Source: Methanosarcina sp. DH2
Lineage (GTDB): Archaea > Halobacteriota > Methanosarcinia > Methanosarcinales > Methanosarcinaceae
Reading direction: 5' to 3'
Assembly: GCF_020804225.1 (NCBI RefSeq)
Contig: NZ_WJBI01000023.1
Span: forward strand, 1-53,492
DNA length: 53,492 nt
Position numbers and translations under genes: made by a program. The notes under the pieces were generated by a model, which had not been told where the DNA came from, did not search any database, and saw only the letters and a program-made list of their open reading frames with translations. Shown here piece by piece: positions 42,879-53,492 of this stretch (its first letter is position 1; every line of letters starts with the position of its first letter).

Positions 42879-43286
42879 TCAAGGCAAAAGTGACTGATTT
42901 TCATTAATCTGGTTTATATATCGACTGATTCTTTCCCTTAATTCGTTTACTGAGTCTACTCTTATTCCTCTCAACATGCTTCTTGTCATTTTACTGAAAA
43001 AACTTTCAATTATATTCAACCACGAAGCATGTTTGGGTGTGAATACAAATTCAAATTTATCAGGAGCACTTTCCAGGTGTTCTCGAGTTTCTATTGAGGT
43101 ATGTATTTTGTGATTATCCGTCAGAATTTTGATTTTTTCTCTTGGATAAATTAACTCAAGTTCTTTAAGGAATTGTACGAATTCCCAGCTTCTATGCCTT
43201 TCAAATACTTTATAATGAATTCTTCCTGATATCAAATCGATTTCAGCTAATAGCGAAAGAGTTCCATTTTTTCTGTATTCATATTT
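42879..43286 (-). pseudogene. IS630-type transposase, C-terminal fragment
   Basis: The frame YRKNGTLSLLAEIDLISGRI, then ILTDNHKIHTS (second catalytic Asp) and HASWLNIIESFFSKMTRSML (catalytic Glu), to YINQINENQSLLP, is the DDE domain of an IS630 transposase. The N-terminal half and the first Asp are missing; TGA bounds the frame at 43287. It is inactive. Confidence 0.85.
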
Positions 43287-45872: not shown

Positions 45873-46345
45873 TTAATTTTAGAGGGGTTGAGCAAAAATA
45901 CCCAACTTTTTTTATAGTTTATGCACAGGTTTTTGATAAAACTTGGCATTAGACAAATTAGACAAATATATCTGTGAATTTTGTAACAAATAATTTGAAT
46001 GCAAAAACAGACTCTGTGTGGTCTGGGAGCTGAGATAAATTTCAGTAAGCTCTGAAGCCAGTCCGAAGGTCAGCCCCTGCAAACTACATAGCACAAAACT
46101 TATGACACTGCCCCGTTTTTAGACATATCAAAACAATGAGATAAGGTACGGAGAGAAACCGGCACGAAACTTATTTATTAAAAACTAAAAACCATACTGA
46201 TCGATGTATGTCATATGATGCATGTAGCATATGACACATATTGCTATTTATAGTCTTGTTATAATATGATTGTTGCAGAAAAATGAATATTTTTCAGAGA
46301 ATGTATGGCAGTACATTTCCTGAGTAATTTAATGAGGAAAGTACA
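45873..46345. other. Non-coding stretch with nested hairpin copy 1 and a palindrome
   Basis: The hairpin element 46012-46090 is listed separately. TGTCATATG / CATATGACA (46209-46236) is a perfect 9-bp inverted repeat with a 10-base loop, upstream of the small gene at 46346. No other gene is seen. Confidence 0.5.
46012..46090. ncRNA. Nested hairpin element, copy 1 (candidate structured RNA)
   Basis: It shares the core AAATTTCAGTAAGCTCTGAA with copy 2 at 46617-46690. The inner stem is TTCAG/CTGAA; the outer arms TGTGGT / ACTACA and GAGCTGA / TCAGCCC pair with G-T or single mismatches. Strand and function are unknown. Confidence 0.4.
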
Positions 46346-46468
46346 GTGACAACCAAATTGGTCTTCAAGAATAAGAAGTTTTTCTTTGAGTTAGAAACCT
46401 CTGACCGACTGATACTGTTATGTATCGGGCTGATTTTCCATCAGATTTTTTACTTACAGTTAGTATAA
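46346..46468 (+). CDS. Possible small membrane peptide (40 aa)
   Basis: GTG 46346, with GAGG 8 bases upstream, encodes MTTKLVFKNKKFFFELETSD followed by one hydrophobic segment (RLILLCIGLIFHQIFYLQLV). A basic N-terminus and C-terminal helix fit a small inner-membrane peptide, as in type I toxins or membrane-complex regulators. It lies between two copies of a nested hairpin. No family is recognised. Confidence 0.45.
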   Translation: MTTKLVFKNKKFFFELETSDRLILLCIGLIFHQIFYLQLV

Positions 46469-46796
46469 AAAATATTGACTTGGTAAGAAAATCCGTTTTT
46501 CTTTTTATATTTTTAAGAAATTACTATCAGTCAGCTTTTTCGATTGAATATGATGTATTACTGAAAAATTAATGGAAAAAAATTCCTGTATATCTTCATA
46601 AATTGTAACGGTTCTATGTAGTCTGCGGGGGCTGGAATAAATTTCAGTAAGCTCTGAAGCCATTCCGAAGATCAAACCCCGCAGACTACAAGTACCGCAA
46701 ATAAATGTGATTTATGTACTTTGTTTAATTACTTCTTAAAAAGAATACACTATACATCAAATTAATAAAACAAAAATTCACTCACAATAAGACGAG
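46469..46796. other. Non-coding stretch with nested hairpin copy 2
   Basis: AT-rich. The hairpin element at 46617-46690 is its only clear feature. It separates the small membrane peptide gene from the nuclease relic. Confidence 0.5.
46617..46690. ncRNA. Nested hairpin element, copy 2 (candidate structured RNA)
   Basis: TGTAGTCTGCGGGG (46617-46630) pairs perfectly with CCCCGCAGACTACA (46677-46690). Inside lie a second stem GGAAT/ATTCC and a third, TTCAG/CTGAA with a 6-base loop. About 40 core bases match copy 1. It could be a transcribed RNA or a REP/MITE-like repeat. Confidence 0.45.
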
Positions 46797-47095: not shown

Positions 47096-47230
47096 TTAGC
47101 AAACAAACAAAATAGATTTTTTACTTAAGTAAACCCGTCACCAGTGCAATAGTTAGCATGCAAAAATAAAAAGATAAATTTAGGAAGACGTGCGTTATGT
47201 TAATCGTGTAGTGTTCAGAAAGGTGATTGA

Positions 47231-47758
47231 GTGGTTACTGAAAGTCCTAAAAAGCATGAGAAATCAACATTTTTAGAAGAGTTGCGAAACTGGAAAGAAC
47301 CAACAATACCACAAGATCCAGATTTAATCAAAGATCGAATAACAACTATTATTGGTTTAACTGGAGTACTAATGGGACTTCTAGTACACGCAGTCACAAT
47401 AATAAAATTCGATGATTACGGCAAAATGGGAAATAACATCAGACTGTTCTTCTTCCTAGCCATCTATTTCCTCACCATGTGTGGTTTGACAGGGCTCACA
47501 ACATTCGTTGCAGTCACCGCCCCAAACGATAACGACCCAGCAAAAACACTAAAAAAATCAATTATATGGTTGATGATGACATTTTTCGCAATATCAGTAA
47601 CTATTCCAATGATATTATTTCCAGACAGTAGAATATTCAACATACCAATACCAATGTTATATTTCTTCCTCGTCTTAATCACAGTAGTCTATGAAGGTTT
47701 TACAGGATTAAAAGACGAACAAATTACCGAAATAAAAAATGAGCAAGAGATACACTGA
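47231..47758 (+). CDS. Four-helix membrane protein
   Basis: 175 residues from GTG 47231, with AAAGGTG 6 bases upstream. A charged N-terminus (TESPKKHEKSTFLEELRNWK) precedes two helices (ITTIIGLTGVLMGLLVHAVTII; LFFFLAIYFLTMCGLTGLTTFVAV), a short loop, and two more (SIIWLMMTFFAISVTIPMILF; IPMLYFFLVLITVVYEGFTGL), with an acidic tail. No family is recognised. It is flanked by defence relics, but a defence role is not shown by the sequence. Confidence 0.75.
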   Translation: MVTESPKKHEKSTFLEELRNWKEPTIPQDPDLIKDRITTIIGLTGVLMGLLVHAVTIIKFDDYGKMGNNIRLFFFLAIYFLTMCGLTGLTTFVAVTAPNDNDPAKTLKKSIIWLMMTFFAISVTIPMILFPDSRIFNIPIPMLYFFLVLITVVYEGFTGLKDEQITEIKNEQEIH

Positions 47759-53128: not shown

Positions 53129-53492
53129 TTATTGAACTGGAACTCTAAACGTTAGTAATTCCTTTAAAGTCCATATGTGATCGGTTATTCCTTCTACCAT
53201 TGCTGGGGTTCTTTGGAACCATTTTCTATTTCCAGAGTTTATTTCTAATCTTAGGGACTTATGAGGTTTTATAAAGTTATACCATGCCTGGAATAAATCA
53301 AAAGCTTTCTGATGCATCTTCATTGTTTTACTGAAATTCATCCCTTTTCTTATAAATCTTGCAAGAGATGTCCTGATCGTAAGATTTATCCTTTCTGCAT
53401 ATGAAGTGCCAATATAACTCTCCGAATTAGTTCCAAGCATTTTGAATATTTCTTTAGGATCTCCAAAAATGATACATTGAATTGTTTCAACT
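53129..53492 (-). CDS. IS1-type transposase, C-terminal part (runs off the window)
   Basis: The frame from the right edge (VETIQCIIFGDPKEIFKMLG) continues YIGTSYAERINLTIRTSLAR, FIRKGMNFSKTMKMHQKAFD and WYNFIKPHKSLRLEI to the stop at 53129. The E-R-x-N-L-x-I-R...NFSK...H pattern is the C-terminal DDE region of IS1-family transposases. The N-terminus lies beyond position 53492. The element's left-hand end, just past the stop, probably lies near 53115 (GTGTCCCCAAGT). Confidence 0.85.
   Translation of the reverse strand, partial: VETIQCIIFGDPKEIFKMLGTNSESYIGTSYAERINLTIRTSLARFIRKGMNFSKTMKMHQKAFDLFQAWYNFIKPHKSLRLEINSGNRKWFQRTPAMVEGITDHIWTLKELLTFRVPVQ

Follow-up and report, generated by a model that had tools for sequence, protein, structure and literature searches.

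The window, i.e. the whole 53,492-nt stretch of Methanosarcina sp. DH2 DNA that was analysed, contains two hairpin elements in the form of 87-letter DNA palindromes, and a gene for a short hydrophobic peptide lies between them (Table 1). Copy 1 and copy 2 are 86% identical across 64 nt and share an identical 23-nt core, for which the chance expectation is 0 occurrences. An earlier note on this DNA had described two related copies with an identical inner hairpin and a perfect 14-bp outer stem in copy 2, and both observations were confirmed (stem at 46617-46630/46677-46690). In comparison to chance, the folding of copy 2 was strong (z -5.8) and that of copy 1 weaker (z -2.2), and both strands of copy 2 folded equally well, as expected of palindromic DNA. 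BLAST queries against the own genome returned only these two hairpin copies, both in the window. The remnant adjoining copy 1 on its left side is probably a piece of coding sequence.

Table 1. Features of the hairpin and peptide region, in window coordinates.
Feature	Position	Strand	Remarks
Remnant left of copy 1	45966..46009	+	91% to G002:C16:55390-55433; match ends at the edge of copy 1
Hairpin element copy 1 (w1)	46010..46096	+	Degenerate ends; 83-86% identity with copies in other Methanosarcina genomes; alignment A1
Core AATTTCAGTAAGCTCTGAAGCCA of copy 1 (inner hairpin)	46038..46060	+	
Predicted leader hairpin GTACATTTCCT/AGGAAAGTAC	46311..46344	+	Covers ribosome site 46334-46338; weak (z -1.8)
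Peptide gene	46346..46468	+	40 residues, hydrophobic C-terminal half, GTG start; full-length 38-residue homologues in genomes G023 and G009
Hairpin element copy 2 (w2)	46610..46696	+	Near-complete ends GGTTCTATGTAGTCTGCGG ... CTACAAGTACC
Core AATTTCAGTAAGCTCTGAAGCCA of copy 2	46640..46662	+	Same as copy 1 core

The 40-residue hydrophobic frame with a ribosome site, previously noticed between the two copies, was recovered as a GTG frame with the ribosome site GAGGA, and residues 22-40 of the peptide have a mean Kyte-Doolittle value of about 2.2. Frame length alone is uninformative, as 67% of resampled segments hold a frame that long, and the gene is held real because of its homologues: those in two other Methanosarcina genomes (G023 and G009) match from start to stop, with alignment scores exceeding all 20,000 shuffles. 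By this comparison of sequences the peptide gene looks real. The three peptide genes are located in unrelated contexts, and no palindrome was found within about 5 kb of the G023 and G009 homologues; palindromes and peptide are therefore taken to be independent, and the joint small-RNA/peptide unit suggested in the earlier note was not supported. Searches for the peptide in plasmids and viral contigs gave no hits.

Conservation of a small hydrophobic peptide, a trait of type I toxin-antitoxin loci, was found here. Like type I toxin peptides and the small membrane proteins of Methanosarcina mazei, the predicted product has about 40 residues, a hydrophobic helix-like segment and a putative structured leader, whereas it differs from them in having no Pfam or NCBIfam match; it would represent a small membrane-protein family not contained in the libraries that were searched. 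The peptide and its leader might accordingly constitute a type I toxin-antitoxin locus with the hairpins as unrelated neighbours, which would be compatible with a transposon origin of the hairpins. This is consistent with the peptides of three Methanosarcina genomes, which are 38-40 residues long and hydrophobic in their C-terminal half, and with the stem-loops, which are strong just before the ribosome site in G023 and G009 (z -2.6 and -4.0) and, as predicted, weaker over the site in the window. We nevertheless regard such a locus as unlikely, as the peptide genes are apparently single copies, and M. mazei has many small proteins without known toxicity (PMC11456600).

Full or partial copies of the hairpin were found in about half of the 31 genomes of the genus, in the best cases 80-86% identical, and one genome had five copies within 28 kb, all in the same orientation. 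Their flanks across the genus were mostly unrelated, and the other copies adjoined unrelated genes. Searching with the end pattern revealed many more palindromes of 86-90 bp, in which the middles vary and the ends are constant; the reversed end pattern, as a control, gave at most one match per genome and strand. The palindromes form a superfamily across Methanosarcina, with the fixed ends GGTWCTRTGTAGTYT and the length of 86-90 bp holding across subfamilies. Copies in direct orientation around genes were present in L117, in G005 and in the window. Some copies have kept their position across several species; a functional site might do likewise, and this counts against a mobile reading. No hairpin was found in plasmid or phage records. 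At L117 (3040-3761), a palindrome and an acetyltransferase-like gene are duplicated in direct tandem, the first gene copy being truncated, and at L131 (2536-2901) a palindrome is interrupted by an insertion of ca. 278 bp that is absent from the orthologue L122.

In the earlier note, the outer arms were said to have changed between the two copies yet still to pair, and this was read as a functional RNA with a compensated stem. The alignments did not bear this out: 0 of 24 aligned outer-stem positions carried a compensated double change between the window copies, and the differences were either one-sided or broke the pair in one copy. Among 23 aligned relatives, the proportion of paired cells in the named structure was 77.2% versus 76.6% in shuffles, and the covariation score and pair types were inside the shuffled range. 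When the pairing partners were slid, pairing fell to 30-46%, and the palindrome is therefore real. Mutations hit its two arms independently, like those of decaying DNA repeats. RNAalifold gave no consensus structure for the 23 copies, for which reason the model R1 is sequence-only and was left unused, and the Rfam search returned no relevant match. It is hence very improbable that the hairpins are copies of a structured RNA gene (small RNA or antitoxin) whose outer stem is conserved and which flanks a toxin-like peptide on both sides. The folding of copy 2, the core conserved between the window copies and the apparently real peptide would fit such a gene, but the lack of covariation, of compensated pairs and of an Rfam match, the unrelated genes beside other copies, the peptide homologues with no hairpin nearby, and the equal folding of both copy 2 strands all argue against it. 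The other reading given in that note, a structured mobile repeat, was supported instead. Transposon ends standing back to back can mimic a compensated RNA stem, and an apparent RNA finding becomes one about mobile elements.

A second family of the order (family f5, genus g25, possibly Methanoperedens) shows this end pattern as well, and one match there led to an IS6-like transposase, with the ORF L286:4067-5218 as an example. Homologues of this transposase are encoded by transposons 2.8-5.0 kb long, whose ends are of the form GGTTCTGT(CA, TA or GT)AGTCT, and perfect target duplications of 8-9 bp were identified in eight of the nine transposons tested. The PF13610/IS6-like transposase was found at L279, L280, L282, L283, L285, L286, L289 and L290. 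The partner transposase matched PF13610 at 1.1e-14 and, with its C-terminal 226 residues as query, the NCBIfam IS6 family at 6.3e-32, with 110.9 bits against a cut-off of 125. The left end of L282, GGTTCTGTGTAGTCTTCGG, matches Methanosarcina palindromes without a mismatch for 15 or more bases. Moreover, L282 has AGTCT at its left and AGTTG at its right end, and palindrome subfamily B shows the same asymmetry. The inner parts of the L282 end and of the hairpins aligned only loosely, and the inner motif of the hairpins lies about 7 bp nearer to the tip. When two ends of ca. 44 bp each stand back to back, they add up to 86-90 bp, the length that is fixed among the palindromes. The hairpin ends, GGTWCTGT, start with GG and carry the cTGT motif, as in the end consensus of the IS6 family (PMC7986276). 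Two other candidate sources were rejected, namely ISL3 transposons, with ends GGCTCTTCGC, and the IS240-type elements of Methanosarcina, with ends GGTTCCGTTGCAAAAA.

The hairpin itself encodes no transposase, and neither PF13610 nor a matching IS6-like transposase was found in the own genome. Within Methanosarcina, no transposon combined an intact transposase with exact GTAG ends, and related transposases were seen solely as decayed pieces or as pieces at contig edges. As a separate result, four of the eight loci with IS6-like transposons carry restriction or defence cargo next to clean target duplications: Methylase_S with N6_Mtase/type IIG, a type I methylase with specificity subunit, GmrSD_N with HNH, and a fused methylase-specificity protein.

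Target duplications with at least 6 of 8 positions matching were found at 0 of 26 palindromes (5.6% in the swapped-flank control). Between ends of different copies, 894 pairs included two 7-of-8 matches (one orthologous pair of ends, in two species), as by chance. The flanks of eight loci, joined without the hairpin and used as queries, were adjacent in no genome, the sole bridging match being an 11-nt overrun with 78% identity. Since there was neither target duplication nor empty site, the data do not demonstrate simple insertion. Of the observations which the earlier note had listed as speaking against its RNA reading, the missing covariation and the dispersed distribution were found, but the short target duplications were absent. 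At the loci where one flank has homologues elsewhere, homology of that flank ended at the hairpin edge or a few bases off it, with a different sequence on the other side, in L118, L064 and L119, and the same edge break was seen in L120 versus L117 and L124, and on the left side of window copy 1. Together with the missing duplications and empty sites, the breaks suggest that flanks were exchanged by IS6-type reactions or by recombination. A tRNA-associated island was also considered and rejected, as there was no tRNA.

The edge breaks with different genes on each side, the missing target duplications and the direct-orientation copies around genes would also be expected of a site-specific recombination site (integron attC-like or inversion site), at which cassettes are joined at the hairpin. 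This is distinctly unlikely in our view, given that the ends match those of IS6-like transposons that do have target duplications; by inspection only, RYYYAAC/GTTRRRY attC boxes were lacking and the ends read GGTWCTGTGTAGTYT.

The hairpins are probably MITE-like non-coding mobile elements, composed of transposon ends back to back that match IS6-like ones, with the peptide gene being independent of them. They resemble MITEs in being short, non-coding and dispersed, in their terminal inverted repeats, and in ends that match a larger transposon. They differ in their length of just 86-90 bp, in the lack of target duplications and empty sites, and in their chimeric junctions. Because target duplication and empty site were both looked for and not found, the hairpins are termed MITE-like and are not filed as MITEs. 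As to an autonomous partner, L282 with its matching end lies in another family of the order, and the own genome is without one. Two IS6-family MITEs, of 227 and 336 bp, are known (PMC7986276). In the literature that was searched, nothing specific was found on MITEs or non-autonomous elements in Methanosarcina.

With IS6/IS26 elements and pseudo-compound transposons, the hairpins have in common the GG..CTGT ends and the arrays in direct orientation, and the matching transposons have 8-bp duplications and an IS240-type DDE transposase. In contrast to these known systems, the hairpin is devoid of a transposase, and the matching transposons are 2.8-5 kb long with cargo and a transposase below the NCBIfam IS6 cut-off. 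IS26 forms direct-orientation arrays, undergoes targeted reactions beside existing copies and exchanges flanking repeats (PMC7986276). Behaviour of the IS26 type would explain the flank pattern, as would recombination between copies.

According to the MITE-like interpretation, transposon ends of about 44 bp would have been joined back to back to give palindromic DNA of 86-90 bp, and the copies would have spread in the past by an IS6-like (IS240-type DDE) transposase acting in trans. Intramolecular or targeted reactions of the IS6 type, or recombination between copies, may then have exchanged the flanks. Copies would thereby have come to lie at new junctions and would often enclose other DNA in direct orientation. 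In the own genome, which is without a helper, the window copies would now be decaying, and the peptide gene with its own leader would have been caught independently between two of them. The hairpins mark junctions of DNA segments that do not adjoin one another elsewhere, and they offer a handle on genome rearrangement in Methanosarcina. A further-reaching proposal, to which we give little credence, is that a family of transposon-end palindromes without target duplications provides archaeal docking points, where an IS6-type transposase exchanges flanks and genes are shuffled as cassettes. If so, the cassettes between hairpins would comprise the membrane-peptide gene here and the acetyltransferase-like gene elsewhere, and the arrangement would resemble IS26 translocatable units, except that the elements measure 89 bp and the helper acts in trans.

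Transposase-like fragments, recognised by eye from translations, are located at 42879-43235 and 53129-53440 of the window. A sequence of about 85 nt (47162-47246), just before and into a 175-aa membrane ORF (47231-47758), recurs with 74-90% identity in roughly twelve genomes of Methanosarcina, frequently as tandem copies 600-850 bp apart, and is likely the promoter/leader of a duplicated membrane-protein family. The remnant at 47909-48006 matches the 3' end of an Old Yellow Enzyme-like gene (named by eye from the translation), and in several relatives this gene is directly followed by a palindrome, the type of which differs at the same position.
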